Shown here: positions 30,524-39,607 of the stretch, piece after piece
Layout: each line of letters opens with the position of its first letter
Numbering within the stretch: the stretch's first letter is position 1
Source of the DNA: an uncultured Candidatus Poseidoniales archaeon
Lineage (GTDB): Archaea; Thermoplasmatota; Poseidoniia; Poseidoniales; Thalassarchaeaceae
DNA length: 39,607 bases
Assembly: GCA_902573015.1 (NCBI GenBank)
Contig: CACGIE010000010.1
Coordinates: 1 to 39,607 of the forward strand
Direction: 5' to 3'
Notes under the pieces: generated by a model
What the model was told of the DNA's origin: nothing
Seen by the model: the letters and a program-made list of their open reading frames with translations, nothing else
The model's database searches: none
Position numbers and translations under genes: made by a program

Positions 30524-31843
30524 TCACTGGCCCCTTAACGACTCGAGCTCCTCAATCACAGCTGCTTGCGTGATCCTTCCGCCCTTCTCCCTCAGCCTAG
30601 AGGCCACCAAATCAACCTCCTCGCCCACAGCTCCAGCTGTGACTGCCATGTTCCTGACATGCAGCTTCATGTGACCTGCTTGTATTCCCACAGTGGCCAG
30701 TGCACGCAGTGCTCCGAGGTTCTGGGCAAGCCCAGATGCCGCCATCACCTTGGCCAGCTCGTCCGCGCTCTCTACCCCTAGTAGTGCGACGTTCGCCTGC
30801 GCAGCGGGGTGGACCCTCACAGCCCCCCCAACCAGGCCAACTGCCATCGGGAGCTCGATCGACCCAACCAGATTGCCATCTTCGTCCTTAGACCATTTTG
30901 TCAGGGAGCCATACCTCCTCTCGTGAGAGGCATAGCTGTGTGCACCCGACTCTATCGCTCTCCAGTCCTGACCGCAGGCCAGGGCCACTGAGGAAATTGC
31001 ATTCATGATGCCCTTGTTATGAGTTGTAGCCCTGAAGGGGTCCGCCTCAGCGAAGTGGTATGCCTGAATCACTCCCTCGATCACTTCTGCGCCCTTGGCG
31101 GCATCGTCTCCCCTGTCTGACATCTCCTCGGGAGTGAATACGGCACTGACCCTGGCAAGCCGTAGGACTGCCAGATTGCTGATTATCCTCAGTATAACTG
31201 TCCCACCGGTGATCTCCTCCACCTTTGGGGCAATGGTCTCTGCCATGGTGTTGACAGCATTCGCACCCATGGCATCCCTGCAGTCTACGTGAATGTGCAC
31301 GATTACCATCGGTCCGGAGCCTGTTTCGATTACCCTGGCATCTAGGTCCCTGCAACCACCGCCGAACTTGACCAGTATCGGATCAACCTCGTTGCAACTA
31401 GCAACCAACTCTTCCTTGGATGAAATGATAGAGTCCCTTGCCCCTTGCGGGTCATCGCATCCCACGATCTGAATCTGACCGATCATCACTGGGTCATCGT
31501 TGTTAGACTTGAACCCCCCATTTGCTAGACACCTCTTGGCCATGTTGCTCGCTGCAGCTACGACACTAGGCTCCTCCAGCACGAACGGTATTGCGTAGTG
31601 CGAACCGTCTACAACGAAGTTCGTAGCTACACCTATTGGTAGGGAGTAAGTCCCTACGACGTTCTCGATCATCCTGTCTGCCGAATCCTCGTCCAACTCC
31701 CCTGTTTGAGCCCAGGCCTCGACCTGCTCCTCACTCAATTCAGCTATCTCTGCAAGCAGCTCCCTTCTCTCTGAAACTGATAGTTTGTAGAACCCTTCGA
31801 TACGACTGTTCTCTATTGGCATAGTACTCAATCGGGGAGACAT
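30524..31843 (-). CDS. hmgA: HMG-CoA reductase, class II
   Basis: A 439-residue enzyme of the class II (Pseudomonas mevalonii-like) family found in several archaea. Motifs: SRIEGFYKLS, ENVVGTYSLPIGVATNF (60-76), EEPSVVAA with the catalytic Glu at 90/91, DCRDAMGANAVNTMAE (187-202), HNKGIMNA with catalytic K277, and GHMKLHV with catalytic H391. It converts HMG-CoA to mevalonate, the committed step to archaeal ether-lipid isoprenoids. An ATG at 31822 is also possible and is where the conserved part starts. A phased CGTTAA array lies upstream. Cofactor preference (NADH or NADPH) cannot be judged. Confidence 0.93.
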   Translation of the reverse strand: MSPRLSTMPIENSRIEGFYKLSVSERRELLAEIAELSEEQVEAWAQTGELDEDSADRMIENVVGTYSLPIGVATNFVVDGSHYAIPFVLEEPSVVAAASNMAKRCLANGGFKSNNDDPVMIGQIQIVGCDDPQGARDSIISSKEELVASCNEVDPILVKFGGGCRDLDARVIETGSGPMVIVHIHVDCRDAMGANAVNTMAETIAPKVEEITGGTVILRIISNLAVLRLARVSAVFTPEEMSDRGDDAAKGAEVIEGVIQAYHFAEADPFRATTHNKGIMNAISSVALACGQDWRAIESGAHSYASHERRYGSLTKWSKDEDGNLVGSIELPMAVGLVGGAVRVHPAAQANVALLGVESADELAKVMAASGLAQNLGALRALATVGIQAGHMKLHVRNMAVTAGAVGEEVDLVASRLREKGGRITQAAVIEELESLRGQ

Positions 31844-31890
31844 GGCAACGGGCTTCTAACCTTTTTCGAGCCGAAGGCACTCTAAAAAAG

Positions 31891-31949
31891 CGTTAATTTA
31901 GCCGTTAACGCTTCGTTAACGCTTCATTAAACCGTTAATTATGCGTTAA
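31891..31949. repeat. Helically phased CGTTAA array
   Basis: CGTTAA starts at 31891, 31903, 31914, 31933 and 31944, with CATTAA at 31925; spacings are 12, 11, 11, 8 and 11 bp. The unit CGTTAACGCTT occurs twice in perfect tandem (31903-31924). Another CGTTAA lies at 32021. CGTTAACG is palindromic. The array fills the gap between the divergent HMG-CoA reductase and AAA+ genes, so it is either a multi-site operator or an initiator-binding array. Confidence 0.85.
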
Positions 31950-32056
31950 TCCACTTTCTGTGAAACTTGATCACTGCTAATTAATTGCGAGACAAAGTCA
32001 TTCGGATTTCCAAATTGACCCGTTAATTCCAACTTTTAGACCCGTAATTATGCGTG

Positions 32057-32064
32057 AATATTAA
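32057..32064 (+). promoter_or_regulatory. TATA-like box for the AAA+ gene
   Basis: AATATTAA is centred about 30 bp before the ATG at 32090 and favours that start over the in-frame GTG at 32054, which would overlap the box. Confidence 0.4.
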
Positions 32065-32089
32065 GAATCCCAGATGTACTTGCTCGTCT

Positions 32090-33886
32090 ATGGTAGTGAG
32101 GGGGTTTTCATCATTGGATATCCCTACCCTTCGAGGCAACCCCTTCGACTCCAGGCCAATAGAGAGGAATCGCGCGGGCGAGATAGTAGGGCGGCAGGAA
32201 ATTCTGATTCGGTGGAAGGAGCACATGCACTCCCAGTCCCCCCGGCTAATCCTACTGTCCGGAGAGAGGGGGTCGGGAAGGACTTCACTGATCAATGCCA
32301 TTTCGTCACAGACCAACGAACGCTTCATCGGCACGTATTGGCATAGTGAGGATCCCCTAAATTGTGCTCTGGACGAACTCGCAATCACATTCTGTGGTTA
32401 CGAGATTCCCCCAACCATGCACCAAAAGGTGGAGAGGGTGGTGGAGACTCTTGACTCCGGCTCAGGACCCCTCCCCCTCGTGGCACTGGACTACCCTGCT
32501 CATGTCGATGTCTCGTCATTCCTGCCATTGATTGTCCCCATCCTTCAGCGTCTCAGGGCACTGGTCATCATCTCTCTTTCCAATTCTCAGCTGGCTTCTC
32601 TGGATGAAGGAGTAAGGGAAGTCTTCGATGAATATGCCACTGTTGCTCCCTTCTCGAATGACCAGATACAAACTCTCTGCAATAGCAGAATAAGAAAAAT
32701 GTCTCCGGAGAAGTGGAACATCAATGGGGAACTCCTGGAAGCCATCTCGTCTAGGACTGGTGGAAATGCAAGATCGGTGATCAGCCTTCTAAGGGATCTG
32801 GTTGATGAGAGGAGGAACATGGGCAAGGAGGGTACTCTCGAATCTCTAACTAGTTGGAACCCCCCAGAAATCAACGATATTGAGAAAATTCCCGTCGTCG
32901 AACCAATAGACAAGAATATTCTCGAGGAACCTGAAAATAGGGAAATACAGTCAGAAGAGAAGAGCAGTAAATCAGTTTTCGATTTCGAGCCGTTGGAGGA
33001 TGAAGAGGAAATTGTACAAGATCCAACAGACGATGAAGATTGGGATGTAGAGCCCGATGACATGTGGGAAGAAGAGGAATCGGTGGATATCGATGAACTG
33101 CAAGAAGATGTAGAAGAACCCATACCCCCACAATTAGATGACGATCTTGGAAATACTTCAGATTGGTCAATGGATGATGGTACCGCGCTTTCCATGGAGG
33201 TCGGAACAGAACCTCCTCAGAGGGACTCAACTAGGGGTTTCTTTGGACTTGTTAGTAGATCTAGAATAACTAATGACGAAATGCCTACTGGACCAGACGA
33301 CTCCGTTCCTGTACGGGATGCCGATGTAGAGAGTCCACCGCAATCATCTGAAAGCGTACAAAAGCCCCAACAAGATCCAGTTATTGATGAATATCGAATG
33401 TCTGTAAATACTGATGATCCTCGATCGGAGGAGAAACAGGTATTGTTCTCGGAGGGGGAGCTTTGGACTGTCGACTCAGAATTGGCGGATACTCTCCCAG
33501 AAATCCAAGAAGATGACGACTTCGAGCCTGAGGAGGATATTCCAGAAACGGAGATCACACCTCAAAGTGAACTGGAAGAGACTGAGATGGAGGTCCAAAG
33601 GCCAATTACTCTACTTGGACCAAAGTGGGAGTCAGAGAAAATCGTGGACAGTGACCACCTATCCAGCATGAATGACGCGGAGAGGCTCATAGTTTCCATA
33701 GCCTCCTCCAGGGAGATATCTCCCTCCGATGCTGAGATCCAAGCCCGTCTGGAGGTTGGAAGGCCCCGTCTTTCACAGATATACAATTCTCTCCACAAAT
33801 CCGGAATTCTAGCAGTTAGGAAGCAAGGTAGGAGTCGACTGTTCAAGATTAGCGAGGCTGCTGGAGAGCTGCTAAGGGGGGTGTGA
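32090..33886 (+). CDS. AAA+ protein with degenerate P-loop, long acidic region and C-terminal winged helix
   Basis: A 598-residue protein. An Orc/Cdc6-like AAA+ core spans about 15-240: NPFDSRP and EIVGRQEIL before the P-loop, Walker A GERGSGRT (58-65) with Arg64 in place of Lys, a Walker B-like LVALDYPA lacking the usual Glu, and a sensor-2-like SSRTGGNARSVISLLRDL. A long acidic, low-complexity stretch (about 250-540) follows. The end (about 545-598) is a winged helix (DAEIQARLEVGRPRLSQIYN, then LFKISEAAGELL). It may be a DNA-binding, ATP-binding or nonhydrolysing protein. It lies immediately beside the CGTTAA array. The stop is 2 bp before the next start. Function unknown. Confidence 0.72.
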   Translation: MVVRGFSSLDIPTLRGNPFDSRPIERNRAGEIVGRQEILIRWKEHMHSQSPRLILLSGERGSGRTSLINAISSQTNERFIGTYWHSEDPLNCALDELAITFCGYEIPPTMHQKVERVVETLDSGSGPLPLVALDYPAHVDVSSFLPLIVPILQRLRALVIISLSNSQLASLDEGVREVFDEYATVAPFSNDQIQTLCNSRIRKMSPEKWNINGELLEAISSRTGGNARSVISLLRDLVDERRNMGKEGTLESLTSWNPPEINDIEKIPVVEPIDKNILEEPENREIQSEEKSSKSVFDFEPLEDEEEIVQDPTDDEDWDVEPDDMWEEEESVDIDELQEDVEEPIPPQLDDDLGNTSDWSMDDGTALSMEVGTEPPQRDSTRGFFGLVSRSRITNDEMPTGPDDSVPVRDADVESPPQSSESVQKPQQDPVIDEYRMSVNTDDPRSEEKQVLFSEGELWTVDSELADTLPEIQEDDDFEPEEDIPETEITPQSELEETEMEVQRPITLLGPKWESEKIVDSDHLSSMNDAERLIVSIASSREISPSDAEIQARLEVGRPRLSQIYNSLHKSGILAVRKQGRSRLFKISEAAGELLRGV

Positions 33887-33888
33887 AG

Positions 33889-34176
33889 ATGTCAGAAACC
33901 ATCACACACGAGAGAATTGAGAGGTACCTCTCACTAACTGCAGAGGCTAGGGAGAAGGCAACATCCATCACCACAAACAAACTGGATGAAGAAAGATTAG
34001 CAGACATGCTTCGGATGTGCGATGACTATACTCGAGATGCAAGGCATTTTGCATCCGAGGGAGATCTCGTAAGCTCATTCGGAGCGATTAATTACGCTCA
34101 TGCATGGCTAGATGCGGCAGTCAGAATCGGCCTTCTCGACGGACATGGTGATGATAGGCTATTCACACTGCCCTAG
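33889..34176 (+). CDS. DUF357 family protein
   Basis: A 95-residue helical archaeal protein. RYLSLTAEAREKA, MLRMCDDYTRDARHF and SSFGAINYAHAWLDAAVRIG are characteristic of DUF357. Function unknown. I chose the ATG at 33889, which has a GGGGGGTG ribosome site 6 nt upstream; a GTG at 33883 overlaps the preceding stop. The stop TAG shares the CTAG tetranucleotide with the stop of the convergent PIN gene. Confidence 0.8.
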   Translation: MSETITHERIERYLSLTAEAREKATSITTNKLDEERLADMLRMCDDYTRDARHFASEGDLVSSFGAINYAHAWLDAAVRIGLLDGHGDDRLFTLP

Positions 34177-34535
34177 GCCTCTACCAGTCGCAAAGATGGC
34201 CCTGAAGTGACTTCGATAAATGAGCATCCCTTTTCCACCAGCTTTCTCTTCAGACCCCTGTCAACAGTCAACACGGGCCAACCCTTCCGTATTGATATCT
34301 CCACTAGGTTTGTGTCAGTATGCCCCTCGTCCGATTTTACGAACTCTGCCCTGGAGTAGAGGAGATCCAGAAGCAGTCCCCCTCTGCTGCCAGCGAGCGA
34401 ATCCAACTCCCTCCTTACGGAATCAGTGATCTTAAGCTCGGCTTCTCCTATCGCCTCGTTCAGCGATATGTCCAGGTTCAGGCCTGCATCTACCAGCGAA
34501 ACCCAGCCACAGGCATCTACTAGGACGCCTACCAT
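34173..34535 (-). CDS. PIN-domain protein, Fcf1/Utp24-like
   Basis: A 120-residue PIN domain. GVLVDACGWVSLVD gives the first catalytic Asp, ITDSVRRELDSL the helix-borne acidic residues, and the DTNLVEIS and VLTVDRGLKRKL segments the remaining ones. Archaeal PIN proteins of this type are thought to act in rRNA processing. The position after aIF2-gamma (4 bp after its stop if ATG 34535 is used) repeats a conserved archaeal neighbourhood with S6e and aIF2-gamma. An ATG at 34559 is an alternative that overlaps aIF2-gamma by 20 bp. Confidence 0.82.
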   Translation of the reverse strand: MVGVLVDACGWVSLVDAGLNLDISLNEAIGEAELKITDSVRRELDSLAGSRGGLLLDLLYSRAEFVKSDEGHTDTNLVEISIRKGWPVLTVDRGLKRKLVEKGCSFIEVTSGPSLRLVEA

Positions 34536-34539
34536 GGGA

Positions 34540-35781
34540 TCAGCCCGAGATAGTCCCATGCCCGATTAGCCGCCATCTGGAACCAACCCTTCTGGAAAGG
34601 GTGATCCTGCTTCCTGCCTTTGCACAAATCGGAAGCCTGAGAGCCAGTTTCGCCTTCTTACCCTTGATATTGGCCACAGTGCCCACGCTCGTCGCCGTGG
34701 CAGAGTTTACCATCAGCATCTCATTGGGCTGAAGAGGCCTGATGCCACCTTCGACATCGTCCCCCGACACCATCTTCTCCAACAGTTCCAGGTTCAGGCT
34801 CAGCTCCTCCCATATCGGAGGCAACTCCCCCTCTCTGGCCATAACCTGCCCGGAGAGATCGTCGGCCTTCGTAGCAAGGGGGTCCAGTGGCGTGGAAACC
34901 CCGCAAAGGCCTCCCGCAAAAGCGGTCTCCAGGTCGCTACCGCCACCTTGGATCCCATCTATGGTGGTCTTGAGTGGCTCCCATCTTGTCTTCCCCCCCT
35001 CCTGGATTCTCCTTCCGGGGGCTATTAGGATGCTATCTCCTACGCTGAAGGAACCCTCTACAATGCTCCCGCCGATCACTCCGCCTCTGATTTCTGTTGG
35101 CCTCGAGCCCGGCCTGTTGACGTCGAAGGAACGAGCAACGTACATCAGGCCACTATCGTCCTCGGTCCTGTCCGGAGTGGGGATTGTATTCTCTATAGTC
35201 TCGATTAGGATATCAAGATTCACATCGTGATGCGCAGAGACGGGAATTATCGGGGCATCCTCGGCAATCGTACCTCTTACGAAGTCCTTGATCTCGTTGT
35301 ATGACTCTATCGCCCTCTCCTTGCTGACTATGTCTATCTTGTTCTGCACTACGACTATGTTCTCTATCCCCGCAATCTCGAGAGCTGCCAGGTGCTCCTT
35401 GGTCTGCGGTTGAGGACACTTCTCGGTTGCGGCTACCAATAGCAGTGCACCATCCATAATAGACGCACCTGAAATCATAACTGCCATCAGGGTCTCGTGT
35501 CCGGGGGCATCCACGAAAGAAACAACCCTCAGGAGGTCACCCTTCCCCTTGTCGCCTTCCGGATGCTTGCCCTTGGCGTAGTGCTCTCCCTCCTTGGTCA
35601 CGTGGAAAGAGGTATCAGCGTATCCCAGTTTGATGCTGATCCCCCTCTTCCTTTCCTCGGAGTGGGTGTCCGTCCAGGTTCCAGAAAGAGCCTGAGTGAG
35701 TGTGGTCTTCCCATGGTCGACGTGCCCAACCATACCGATATTGACTTCGGGCTGCTTGCTTTTCGATTTAGACAGCTTCAA
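34540..35781 (-). CDS. eif2g: Translation initiation factor aIF2, gamma subunit
   Basis: A 413-residue GTPase that carries initiator Met-tRNA to the ribosome. Motifs: GMVGHVDHGKTTL (P-loop), VDAPGHETLM, VVVQNKID, and domain II/III residues VARSFDVNRPGSRP, GGVIGGSIVEGSF. The segment where archaeal aIF2-gamma normally has a zinc knuckle (two CxxC pairs before RRVSFVDAPGHE) lacks Cys and instead reads with His at 60, 67 and 73 (residues 56-83). The start is TTG 35781, the only one upstream of the conserved region, with GGGGTGA immediately before it. It is co-oriented with S6e upstream (12 bp) and PIN downstream. Confidence 0.93.
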   Translation of the reverse strand: MKLSKSKSKQPEVNIGMVGHVDHGKTTLTQALSGTWTDTHSEERKRGISIKLGYADTSFHVTKEGEHYAKGKHPEGDKGKGDLLRVVSFVDAPGHETLMAVMISGASIMDGALLLVAATEKCPQPQTKEHLAALEIAGIENIVVVQNKIDIVSKERAIESYNEIKDFVRGTIAEDAPIIPVSAHHDVNLDILIETIENTIPTPDRTEDDSGLMYVARSFDVNRPGSRPTEIRGGVIGGSIVEGSFSVGDSILIAPGRRIQEGGKTRWEPLKTTIDGIQGGGSDLETAFAGGLCGVSTPLDPLATKADDLSGQVMAREGELPPIWEELSLNLELLEKMVSGDDVEGGIRPLQPNEMLMVNSATATSVGTVANIKGKKAKLALRLPICAKAGSRITLSRRVGSRWRLIGHGTISG

Positions 35782-35793
35782 TCACCCCAGTCG

Positions 35794-36285
35794 TCACTCC
35801 TCTTCACCAGAGGACTGTTCGACTGCGGCTTCCTCACCACCAATGATGGCGGCTAGAGAGCCCTTTCCAGATTCTACTACCTTGAGGTTAATCTGACGCG
35901 TCTCTTGGCTGATTACGTTGCCCCTTAGATTCCTTCTTCTCCTCAGGCCGTCGTACTTGTATCGGTACTCCTTGCTGTTCTTGTTCACGAACTTCTTCCC
36001 CTTGTATCCTATTCCGGCTGTGATAAGTACTGACTTGACTCCCGATCCATCCAAGTCTGGCCTCATTGGTCTACCAGTGATATCTGAGCCACCGGTTATC
36101 TCCAGTTTGTAGCCATTCAGGATGACATCGCCGTCTCCGACGAACATGCCGTCCACAGAATCGCCTATCTTCTTTCCAAGGAAGTGGTTGTAGTTGGACC
36201 CTGTGATATCCAGCGCATAGGATTTGCCGCCAGAGTCAGGATTGGTGTCGTTCACCACTGCCTTGAAGGACTGCTCACCTGCCAT
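35794..36285 (-). CDS. rps6e: Small-subunit ribosomal protein S6e
   Basis: A 163-residue archaeal S6e. GKKIGDSVDGMFVGDGDVIL, YKLEITGGSDITGRPMRPD and YKGKKFVNKNSKEYRYKYDG are diagnostic. The C-terminus has an acidic tail (AVEQSSGEEE) longer than in many archaea. GGTGA lies 4 nt before the ATG at 36285. First gene of the S6e - aIF2-gamma - PIN group. Confidence 0.95.
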   Translation of the reverse strand: MAGEQSFKAVVNDTNPDSGGKSYALDITGSNYNHFLGKKIGDSVDGMFVGDGDVILNGYKLEITGGSDITGRPMRPDLDGSGVKSVLITAGIGYKGKKFVNKNSKEYRYKYDGLRRRRNLRGNVISQETRQINLKVVESGKGSLAAIIGGEEAAVEQSSGEEE

Positions 36286-36352
36286 TTAGTCACCTTGGAC
36301 GGCATCCCGACATAAGCCCCCTATAAGAGCGGTTCGGAGTCTTACGGCTCCT

Positions 36353-37531
36353 CTATCCTTCGAGAAGTCCCTTCTCAATCCTATCTCCAATCACGGCAGG
36401 AACTGAATTTGGCATCGTGATGTACTGTGTCCTCCCTCTACCCCTGTTGGAACTAGATGCTCTACTTACAATCAGTCCCTGGGACTCGAGGTGCTTCAGA
36501 TATTTCCAGAAGGTCGTGTACCCGCGAGCCTCCTCGTTATTTTCCTCGCATATCAGTTCGTACAACTTCCTAGCATCGCCACTAGATATCTCCTCTTCCT
36601 TCTTCAATCTGCGACAAATCCCCAGCAGGACCATCCTCTGATGGACGTTCAGCTTGTCGATCTGACTAGGTTCTACAGATGGTGAGTGTGCCTCGCTAGG
36701 CAGTACGTCTTCTTCCAAGACCTTCTCTCTCCCATCCATCTCTGCCCTTCTGATCGAATTATCGAGTAGTTCAATGGCCATTCTAGCATCGCCCCCCGAC
36801 TCCTCAGCAAAGGCGCCGATTTTTGCTAGCACCTCGTCGCTAATGGCACCAGGCCGACAGGAGGCATCATAACGCTGCCTAGCTATCCCTTCCAAGTCAA
36901 CCGCCGCATATGGGCCAAGTTGTATGGAGTTACTCGAGCCAAGCCTTGATTTAATCGCCTTCTCGAATAGGGAGAAGAGCGACTCGTCCTGACTGACCAT
37001 AATCAATGAAAGCGTTCCATCGCCCTCTTGGTCCTCGTCTATCCTGAGTAGTTTGTAAATCAGGTCGGAGCTATCCCTCCTTACTAGGACGTCAACTTCG
37101 TCTAGAATCAGTAGGAGGTGTGATTGATGGTGCCTCAGATTTCTTCTGATGTTCTTAATTACCTCTGCCGAGCTGAAACCACGCTCTGGATGGCCAGAAT
37201 CCAGAGATAGAGCGATCTGCTGAAGAACTTGGGAAGAGGATGGGTGATTCCTGCAATTTACGTGAGCAATAGATATCTTTCTTCTCCCTTCCAATTTTGA
37301 CGAGACGTCCATGCAGAATCTACGAGTCAGAACGGTCTTCCCAGATCCTACGTTTCCTGTTACGACCGCCTTACAACTAACATTGTGGTTCTGGATACCC
37401 AGGAACATCGATGCCAACTCCCGAAGTTCTTCCCTCCTTCCAACTAACTCCGGAGGAGTCCAATCATATGATAGGGGCTCCTTAGAAACTAGGATTAGCC
37501 CCTCTCCTATGCTATCGAGGTAGTCCGCCAT
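36353..37531 (-). CDS. cdc6: Orc1/Cdc6 replication initiator
   Basis: A 392-residue AAA+ protein with intact Walker A GNVGSGKT (59-66), Walker B LLLILDEVD (139-147), a sensor-1 region (LSLIMVSQD) and sensor 2 (ESGGDARMAIELL). The C-terminal winged helix (about 280-385) includes SPSVEPSQIDKLNVHQRMVL and GYTTFWKYLKHLESQGLI. It probably binds origin DNA and starts replication. It begins with ATG 37531, preceded by GTGAG. It points away from the three unknown plus-strand genes and towards S6e. Confidence 0.92.
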   Translation of the reverse strand: MADYLDSIGEGLILVSKEPLSYDWTPPELVGRREELRELASMFLGIQNHNVSCKAVVTGNVGSGKTVLTRRFCMDVSSKLEGRRKISIAHVNCRNHPSSSQVLQQIALSLDSGHPERGFSSAEVIKNIRRNLRHHQSHLLLILDEVDVLVRRDSSDLIYKLLRIDEDQEGDGTLSLIMVSQDESLFSLFEKAIKSRLGSSNSIQLGPYAAVDLEGIARQRYDASCRPGAISDEVLAKIGAFAEESGGDARMAIELLDNSIRRAEMDGREKVLEEDVLPSEAHSPSVEPSQIDKLNVHQRMVLLGICRRLKKEEEISSGDARKLYELICEENNEEARGYTTFWKYLKHLESQGLIVSRASSSNRGRGRTQYITMPNSVPAVIGDRIEKGLLEG

Positions 37532-37663: not shown

Positions 37664-38632
37664 ATGGTGCTGAAGCGAATTTTCAAGAAGCCCACCCGAA
37701 TGGGGCTTTTCGGGGCTACAATTCTGGCTCTGTTCCAGTCAGTAAACGGCTCTGGTTTATCCGATAACGTAGCACTTAGAACCGGACTGCAAGAACGTCA
37801 GATTTGTCACACTGTCAATTCGGGAGGGGAATTGACCCAGCAATGCACATCGGGAGGAATACCAGAGGGTAAGGAGAAACTAGTTTTCCCAGAGGATCTA
37901 CAATTCGAAATTTGGGGCAATCTGGAAGTCGGCACAATTGACTATGCGATTGTTGCGTTTCTAGCTTATACTCTGGTAGGACTTTGGATCCACAGGCCCA
38001 TTGACAACTCTCTCGGGGCCAAGAAGAGGAAACTGGTCGCTCTCAAGTCGATCCGCTGGATTCGCATATCAGTACTTTCACTTGTTCTGGCCGTATTGTC
38101 CACGGTCAACAAGATGGGGAGATTCGCAGAAATATACAACTCTTGGGGGTTTGGAACGAAGACTGAAGGATCCTTTGGATGGCATGAAGGATCTTTCGGA
38201 TTTGAGCCATTTGAATGGGGAGTTCTAGATGTCGTGGAACTCCTAGCCCTCTATTCATTCTTCCTTTACGCAATTTCCAGAGGGGTGGAAGTAGATAGGG
38301 CGATTCTGAACCCTATCCCCGATAATCGTAACTATATCGAGAAGATTTGGGGAGGAATAAGTGAAGCAGAGAGGGCCCAGAGATCTGATGTAGAGGGAGG
38401 AGCCGCCAAGGCCAACGAATCGTTCACAAATCTAGTAAAGCTACTAGGGGCCTCTGCATCCCTGAATGTCGCTGCAGCATCCCTAGACGAGGGAAATGTG
38501 AAAGTAGCCTTCAACAAATGGAAGAATTTGACTCACAGTAAGGGTAAGCAGAACAAGGATTGGAAGGCCCTATCCGAATCTCTAGATCAGGCAGGTAGTT
38601 TCCCCGAGGAAGAGTCAGGAGAAGAGGAGTGA
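37664..38632 (+). CDS. Membrane protein of unknown function
   Basis: A 322-residue protein. The N-terminus (about 12-30) is a signal-like helix, an external part has two Cys (ICHTVNSGG, QQCTSGG), and three further helices are at about 90-110 (YAIVAFLAYTLVGLWI), 131-148 (RISVLSLVLAVLSTV) and 188-207. A 100-residue cytoplasmic tail follows with Ala-rich helices and an acidic end (EEESGEEE). No family recognised. It is divergent from cdc6 across a 132-bp gap and may head a transcript with the next gene (52 bp). Confidence 0.65.
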   Translation: MVLKRIFKKPTRMGLFGATILALFQSVNGSGLSDNVALRTGLQERQICHTVNSGGELTQQCTSGGIPEGKEKLVFPEDLQFEIWGNLEVGTIDYAIVAFLAYTLVGLWIHRPIDNSLGAKKRKLVALKSIRWIRISVLSLVLAVLSTVNKMGRFAEIYNSWGFGTKTEGSFGWHEGSFGFEPFEWGVLDVVELLALYSFFLYAISRGVEVDRAILNPIPDNRNYIEKIWGGISEAERAQRSDVEGGAAKANESFTNLVKLLGASASLNVAAASLDEGNVKVAFNKWKNLTHSKGKQNKDWKALSESLDQAGSFPEEESGEEE

Positions 38633-38684: not shown

Positions 38685-39380
38685 ATGGCGGACGAACTCA
38701 ACAGGGAAGAAGTGTCTGACAGGCTTGTGACCATCTTCTCCGCATCCCTAGAAGGGAGCGAACTGGAGAAGGCGATTGCAAGTGTGGACAAGCGACTGGA
38801 TAAGTTCGAAGGTAAGTGGGCAGGACTCATAAAATGGGCCGAACAGAAGTACGGACTTCCAGAGGAATCAGGAGGAGAGGATGAGGTAGAAGAGACTCAG
38901 GAGGTAAATGAAGTAGAATCTCAACCAGAGGTCCACGAGGAACCTGTAGAGGTGATCAATGAATCCGCTGAACTTACCAGGGAGGATGCATCAGCAAGGC
39001 TCGAGGCAATTTTCCGCTCAAATCTAGAGGGTCAAGAGTTGGAAAAAATGGTTACAAGCATTGACAAGAGGCTGGACAAGTTCGAAGGTAAGTGGCCAAA
39101 ACTCATTCTTTGGGCCGAGGAGAAGTATGGTCCAGCATCAGTGGCTCCAGTCCAAGAAGAAAATGAGCACGAGGAAATCGCTAAATCTCCAGGAATCGAA
39201 CAAACACTAGAATTCATAATCTCCGGGAATTCTGAAGCGGCCCTATCAAATTTGAAGAAATTAGTTTCCAACAGTCCTTCCGACCCAGATGTATGGAATG
39301 CTTTCTCGTCGTATTTCTCATCTACAGGAAAGCCGGGTAGAGCCAATGCCTGCGAGGAAATGGCCCAATCTCTTTCTTGA
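38685..39380 (+). CDS. Protein with two copies of a 50-residue domain and a TPR-like end
   Basis: A 231-residue soluble protein. Residues 6-57 and 98-149 are homologous: both contain LEG-x-ELEK, then S-[VI]-DKRLDKFEGKW, then WAE-x-KYG. An acidic linker (60-95) joins them. The C-terminus (about 170-231) resembles a tetratricopeptide pair (SGNSEAALSNLKKLVSNSPS). No known family fits. The strict DKRLDKFEGKW core suggests a binding surface. Function unknown. Confidence 0.7.
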   Translation: MADELNREEVSDRLVTIFSASLEGSELEKAIASVDKRLDKFEGKWAGLIKWAEQKYGLPEESGGEDEVEETQEVNEVESQPEVHEEPVEVINESAELTREDASARLEAIFRSNLEGQELEKMVTSIDKRLDKFEGKWPKLILWAEEKYGPASVAPVQEENEHEEIAKSPGIEQTLEFIISGNSEAALSNLKKLVSNSPSDPDVWNAFSSYFSSTGKPGRANACEEMAQSLS

Positions 39381-39470: not shown

Positions 39471-39607
39471 ATGGCTAAGAAGATTCCACAGGATGTAGCC
39501 TTCCGTCTCGCCCAAAAGGCGAAGGAAGCAGAAAAGAAGGCGAAGACAGCAGAAAAGAAGGCGAAGGAAGCAGAAAAGAAGATCAAAGAAGCAGAGAAGA
39601 AGGTAAA
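39471..39607 (+). CDS. Lys/Ala/Glu-rich coiled-coil protein, C-terminus beyond the window
   Basis: The open frame from ATG 39471 runs to the window edge (45 codons). After MAKKIPQDVAFRLAQ come tandem heptads KAKEAEK / KAKTAEK / KAKEAEK / KIKEAEK, a classic charged coiled coil or single alpha-helix. A TATA-like AATTAAAT lies near 39430-39437. The function cannot be judged from this fragment. Confidence 0.7.
   Translation, partial: MAKKIPQDVAFRLAQKAKEAEKKAKTAEKKAKEAEKKIKEAEKKV
39516..39599. repeat. Four tandem 21-bp repeats encoding heptads
   Basis: The 21-bp unit AAGGCGAAGGAAGCAGAAAAG recurs four times with a few changes and keeps frame. It may continue beyond the window. Confidence 0.85.

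Follow-up and report, generated by a model that had tools for sequence, protein, structure and literature searches.

Iteron plasmid origins carry helically phased direct repeats beside the gene for a DNA-binding protein. Among AAA+ initiator-type ATPases, DnaA autoregulates in a nucleotide-dependent way at several sites in the dnaA promoter (PMC8203912), and a study of Methanomassiliicoccales describes an ORB-type origin in which repeated initiator-type sites occupy an intergenic spacer with orc1/cdc6 nearby (PMC4153887). Archaea of Marine Group II rank among the most common in the surface ocean according to the accessible text of the Poseidoniales genome paper, a text in which replication is unmentioned (PMC6461757). 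No description of a replication origin or a regulatory protein in Marine Group II was found in the literature searched, nor was a published account of the array or of the AAA+ protein reported here.

The window (the whole stretch of 39,607 nt that was analyzed) has Candidatus Poseidoniales (Marine Group II) / Thalassarchaeaceae as its closest relatives by name. As in iteron plasmid origins, its phased direct repeats adjoin a gene for a predicted DNA-binding protein; unlike in those origins, the array is chromosomal, the protein is of the AAA+ rather than the RepA type, and initiation at the array is hypothetical. The likeness to DnaA lies in an AAA+ initiator-type ATPase with several sites at its own promoter, and nucleotide-dependent control is proposed here by analogy; however, no homology to DnaA beyond AAA+ was seen, the DNA-binding domain is modeled as an ArsR/MarR-like winged helix, and both the initiator role and the DNA binding of the protein are putative. 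The resemblance to the Methanomassiliicoccales origin lies in repeated sites in a spacer with orc1/cdc6 nearby, but the motif here is CGTTAA as opposed to TTCCANTGGAAA-GGGG, and the ORBs of this order lie elsewhere.

Structure and conservation of the CGTTAA array

An earlier note on this DNA had reported six hexamers (one degenerate) at steps of 12, 11, 11, 8 and 11 bp, a tandem repeat of CGTTAACGCTT and a further CGTTAA at 32021, and all of these were found in the sequence as claimed (Table 1). The series of units proved longer than that note gave, with two degenerate units abutting the inferred promoter of the AAA+ gene. Beyond the core array the steps were 77, 22 and 10 bp, and the helical face was roughly retained; the gap of 77 bp was the commonest across loci (26 cases). 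Both strands of the window contained 13 CGTTAA matches, compared with 6.7 expected, and none of 100 shuffles reached 13. Eight of the 13 matches were clustered within 136 bp, a density far above chance.

Table 1. Features of the locus, with positions in the window
Feature	Position	Strand	Details
HMG-CoA reductase (PF00368)	30524..31822	-	divergent neighbor
Conserved block GGCTTCTAACCTTTTT, inferred HMG-CoA reductase promoter	31851..31866	-	nearly invariant in 19 regions
Core array	31891..31949	+	CGTTAA at 31891, 31903, 31914, 31933 and 31944; CATTAA (degenerate) at 31925
Tandem CGTTAACGCTT x2	31903..31924	+	holds palindromic CGTTAACG
Isolated unit ACCCGTTAAT	32018..32027	+	77 bp (7 x 11) after last core unit
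Two degenerate units	32042..32059	+	CGTAAT at 32043, CGTGAA at 32053; directly upstream of AAA+ TATA-like box; conserved in alignment of window's genus
Inferred AAA+ promoter, TATA-like GAATATTAAG	32056..32065	+	about 29 bp before ATG 32090; from sequence and conservation
AAA+ / acidic linker / winged-helix protein	32090..33886	+	598 aa
AAA+ domain	32123..32854	+	residues 12-255; Walker A GERGSGRTS; Walker B D134-Y-P without Glu
C-terminal winged helix	33638..33883	+	recognition-helix region VGRPRLSQIYN
Orc1/Cdc6	36353..37531	-	Cdc6_C, Cdc6_lid

Helical phasing was upheld when 77 upstream regions (76 relatives plus the window) were analyzed together. Exact 11-bp spacing on the same strand occurred in 139 pairs, compared with about 0.1 per distance in a shuffle control that counted a looser motif. 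The best-fitting period was 10.75 bp (peak mean cosine of 0.68, 668 pairs), and the mean cosine was near or below zero at 7 to 9.5 and at 11.25 to 12 bp.

Alignment of 19 upstream regions from the window's genus, the window included, showed that the core array was conserved, with TTAACGCTT invariant in the first copy of the tandem and ACCCGTWAAT as the aligned form of the isolated unit. The conserved footprint in these regions ran from the block at 31851-31866 through the array, 32018-32027 and 32043-32058 to the TATA-like GAATATTAAG. Among named relatives, at least three CGTTAA/TTAACG hexamers were present within the 350 bp preceding the AAA+ gene in 76/77 loci and at least four in 74/77 (the 77 being those, out of 80 kept, whose upstream DNA reached 350 bp or more), whereas no other 350-bp window in the same loci reached three. 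The array was clear in most genera whose upstream regions were inspected, while g7 (L198) and g16 (L207) had degenerate versions of it. Families differed in the way it was oriented with respect to the AAA+ gene, and g4 and g11 carried two inward-facing pairs 27 bp apart. The array is real, helically phased and conserved.

Searches with the pattern TTAACGCWTYRTTAACGC, one mismatch allowed, found it in 180 of 292 genomes of the order, while the reversed control was found in 6 of 292. In a sample of the phylum the array pattern was present in 29/48 genomes of the order and 1/146 others, and the AAA+ gene was present in 47/48 and 2/146, respectively, the latter two being weak partial matches only. 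The gene was absent from all five genomes of the same class outside the order. The AAA+ protein is restricted to the order, and its gene and the array share one common distribution.

The window's own genome is a 1.08-Mb MAG that is 63% complete. CGTTAA-N2-26-CGTTAA pairs gave five matches in it, all within the array, and a reversed-pattern control gave four chance pairs, so that a lone pair carries no meaning. The search for further CGTTAA arrays suggested by the earlier note detected none besides the one at 31891-31949 in this genome at its 63% completeness, and the pattern search likewise revealed no regulon elsewhere in it.

The adjoining AAA+ winged-helix protein

The protein encoded beside the array begins with the motif NPFxxRPIE, and R-P-R-x-S-Q of its predicted recognition helix is near-invariant. 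The Walker B aspartate, D134, was invariant in 33 aligned members, and the residue following it was never Glu (Tyr, Phe, Val, Ala and others, mostly then Pro). The structural model of the AAA+ domain (pLDDT, 90.7) had as its nearest structures Drosophila Cdc6 (Z score, 16.1) and archaeal Orc1/Cdc6 (14.8 to 15.9), nearly tied with MuB (15.1) and TnsC (14.5), and NLR/STAND and clamp-loader ATPases were also near Orc1/Cdc6 in these searches. Because all four of these other groups were listed as well, the domain is best described as initiator-like, with no assignment to a single family. The model placed two helices between beta-2 and Walker B, which we take to recall the insertion of the initiator clade. 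The winged-helix model (pLDDT, 89.8) matched ArsR/MarR regulators and, at rank 45, the centromere protein AspA.

Curated family models place the protein outside the Orc1/Cdc6 family despite its predicted Orc1/Cdc6-like fold: TIGR02928 scored 20.6 bits against a cutoff of 181.3, and none of the 33 members matched PF09079 (Cdc6_C) or PF22703 (Cdc6_lid) at 0.01. It resembles Orc1/Cdc6 proteins in an AAA+ fold modeled as nearest to theirs and in a C-terminal winged helix and differs from them in an acidic linker of about 260 residues, in the ArsR/MarR-like character of the predicted winged helix, and in the absence of the Walker B Glu from the protein of the window.

Assignment of the array to the AAA+ gene

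HMG-CoA reductase was the divergent neighbor in all 73 loci with enough flanking DNA, and the earlier note's observation of a true orc1/cdc6 gene close to the array was borne out, with Orc1 no more than 8 kb downstream in all 56 loci with enough flank. The neighborhood therefore cannot decide which gene owns the array, and distances were used instead. A candidate loss of HMG-CoA reductase beside the array in several genera was rejected in view of the 73/73 count. Syntenic genes in the window at 34173-37531 (PIN, eIF2-gamma, ribosomal S6e and orc1) followed on the downstream side of AAA+ and DUF357, and the eIF2-gamma/S6e/orc1 block was inverted in L280 and L284. Two open reading frames beside orc1 (37664-38632 and 38685-39380) had no Pfam match at 0.01, and a tandem 21-nt repeat (AAGGCGAAGGAAGCAGAAAAG) occupied 39516-39599 at the contig end.

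As judged from conserved N termini, HMG-CoA reductase most likely starts at 31822 and the AAA+ gene at ATG 32090. Across 92 loci, in which some genomes appear under two loci so that rows are not independent, the distance from the right edge of the array to the NPF codon of the AAA+ gene had a standard deviation of 12.7 bp and was exactly 188 bp in 31 loci. From the left edge to the start of HMG-CoA reductase, the standard deviation in the same loci was 41 bp and the range was 54 to 231 bp. Eight of 100 loci had been dropped (four with short flanks and four failing the anchor or hexamer criteria). Since the array keeps a near-fixed distance from the AAA+ gene and a variable one from HMG-CoA reductase, it is assigned to the former. 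The suggestion that a cooperative-looking, phased array, putatively bound by protein, is tied to the neighboring AAA+ winged-helix gene was thereby supported.

We favor, at slightly better than even confidence, the reading that the Orc-like AAA+ protein forms a helically phased nucleoprotein complex here and thereby regulates its own gene. The encoded protein would bind the adjoining array as its cognate site, with protomers sitting on CGTTAA units along one face of the helix and their AAA+ domains linking them into a filament or loop of protein and DNA. Such a filament could extend over the units at 32021 and 32043-32058 and abut the TATA-like box of the gene itself, whose transcription would be set in an ATP-dependent manner, most simply by autorepression and in the manner of DnaA at its own gene; the promoter of the divergent HMG-CoA reductase gene may come under the same control. 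While the array, its phasing, its conservation and its distances are observed, the domain architecture is modeled, and the binding, the ATP switch and the direction of control are those that we infer. As would be expected of an operator, the sites lie at a near-fixed distance from, and abut, the inferred promoter of the AAA+ gene, and the gene product bears a DNA-binding domain as predicted from the winged-helix model and its matches. The near-invariant recognition helix and the shared distribution of gene and array also speak for this reading. Against autoregulation, the pattern search gave no regulon elsewhere in the 63%-complete genome, the near-constant spacing could also stem from a constraint on another complex, and the array exceeds the length usual for a simple repressor site, its core being placed about 110 bp ahead of the TATA-like box.

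Replication and other readings of the locus

An ORB pattern, TTCCANTGGAAANNNNGGGG with one mismatch, was found in 129 of 146 relatives (reversed control, 20 of 146). In the window, matches to the canonical ORB (TTCCANTGGAAA...GGGG) were at chance level, and none lay near the array or orc1. The ORBs of relatives across the order were seen instead beside a beta-CASP metallo-beta-lactamase gene, often as inverted pairs some 155 bp apart. Among 41 genomes of the family with a strong beta-CASP match (60 searched), in a placement compared by eye, an inverted ORB pair lay within 500 bp of the gene start in 14, a single ORB was present in 12, ORBs were 7 to 8 kb away in 5, and none were found in 10. 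Only single ORBs were seen in the window's genus (G021 and G010). In the other family, 17 of 20 genomes, mostly picked for ORBs already found there, had an inverted pair and 3 had a single ORB. In the complete genome G090, the beta-CASP gene occupies 202,379-203,686 and an ORB is found at 203,910; the array lies 491 kb away, at 694,932, and the ORB/beta-CASP spacer of this genome adjoins neither orc1 gene. A beta-CASP match was absent from the window's own genome at its 63% completeness. Motif and layout suggest that the chromosomal origin is likely the ORB-bearing spacer next to beta-CASP.

Further details of ORB layout were recorded in single loci. An inverted pair about 145 to 165 bp apart was located upstream of the beta-CASP gene in L316:1501-1675 (G112:C6:20944-21118), and the same layout was present in L311, L318, L325, L330 and L335. 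G090 also carried ORB-like sites about 5 kb from its second orc1 paralogue (L119:3663-4183, G090:C1:1823663-1824183); the perfect one was inside a long open reading frame and a mismatched one was just upstream of that frame.

With a likely ORB origin elsewhere, the array could mark a second, ORB-independent site of replication control, at which the Orc-like AAA+ protein of the order, encoded near orc1, would assemble on its own phased CGTTAA array. It would either fire a secondary origin or titrate or license the distant ORB origin, tuning isoprenoid (membrane) synthesis via HMG-CoA reductase; we regard this as unlikely.

It is unlikely that the array is an operator of HMG-CoA reductase, controlling isoprenoid supply and bound by another transcription factor. 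The reductase gene is the constant divergent neighbor, and in the window's genus the array starts about 24 bp upstream of the conserved block before it, but its distance from the array varies as described above while that of the AAA+ gene is nearly constant, and the units continue as far as the AAA+ promoter. The alternative of isoprenoid control raised in the earlier note is thus disfavored for HMG-CoA reductase alone, given the variable distance, while cocontrol of both genes, which are divergent throughout, is possible.

An origin at the array itself, the reading that the earlier note had thought plausible, is improbable. The Orc-like AAA+ protein would there bind the iterons, melt the AT-rich spacer and recruit replication proteins, whether at a main or a secondary, non-ORB origin. 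The initiator-like AAA+ fold and the constant proximity of orc1 are consistent with this, as may be a spacer AT content of 0.61 to 0.73 between positions −240 and −20, compared with about 0.5 in coding sequence, the only comparison made. The raw sampled GC-skew minimum of G090 (block, 665 to 685 kb) is also close to the array at 695 kb, but it was not significant (block permutation P = 0.064), shifted to 654 kb once gaps were filled and vanished after gene-strand correction of third-position skew; raw cumulative skew of G090 was therefore rejected as support. The switch in skew that the earlier note had proposed looking for did not appear: strand-corrected third-position skew had the same sign on either side of the array in four contigs (left/right, −0.052/−0.019 in G034, with the right side weak at t = −1.0 and 36 genes; −0.076/−0.027 in G021; −0.051/−0.057 in G023; and +0.061/+0.049 in G112) and was flat in G090 (−0.004/+0.006, nonsignificant). 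Skew is only weakly informative where archaea have several origins, so these results make an origin at the array less likely and stop short of removing it. With ORBs in the window at chance level, no strand-corrected switch and ORBs located elsewhere, an origin here is not supported.

As a separate observation, strand-independent third-position skew was one-signed over 120 to 276 kb through the array (G034:C11, G021:C22, G023:C11 and G112:C1), and the other family had the opposite sign.

A site that anchors or segregates the chromosome or titrates an initiator (centromere- or datA-like), its array organized by the lineage-specific ATPase, is improbable: the single locus in its own genome, the phased repeats, the adjacent gene for a putative DNA-binding ATPase and the AspA match would suit it, but AspA ranks low among ArsR/MarR regulators, no ParA-type partner turned up in an analysis that was not aimed at one, and segregation needs no near-fixed distance to one promoter.

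The autoregulatory reading leaves a candidate protein-site pair, in which an order-wide, uncharacterized Orc-like ATPase is matched with an array at near-constant geometry. Setting this array apart from the likely ORB origin means that analyses of growth rate from metagenomic read depth could be anchored correctly in these archaea.
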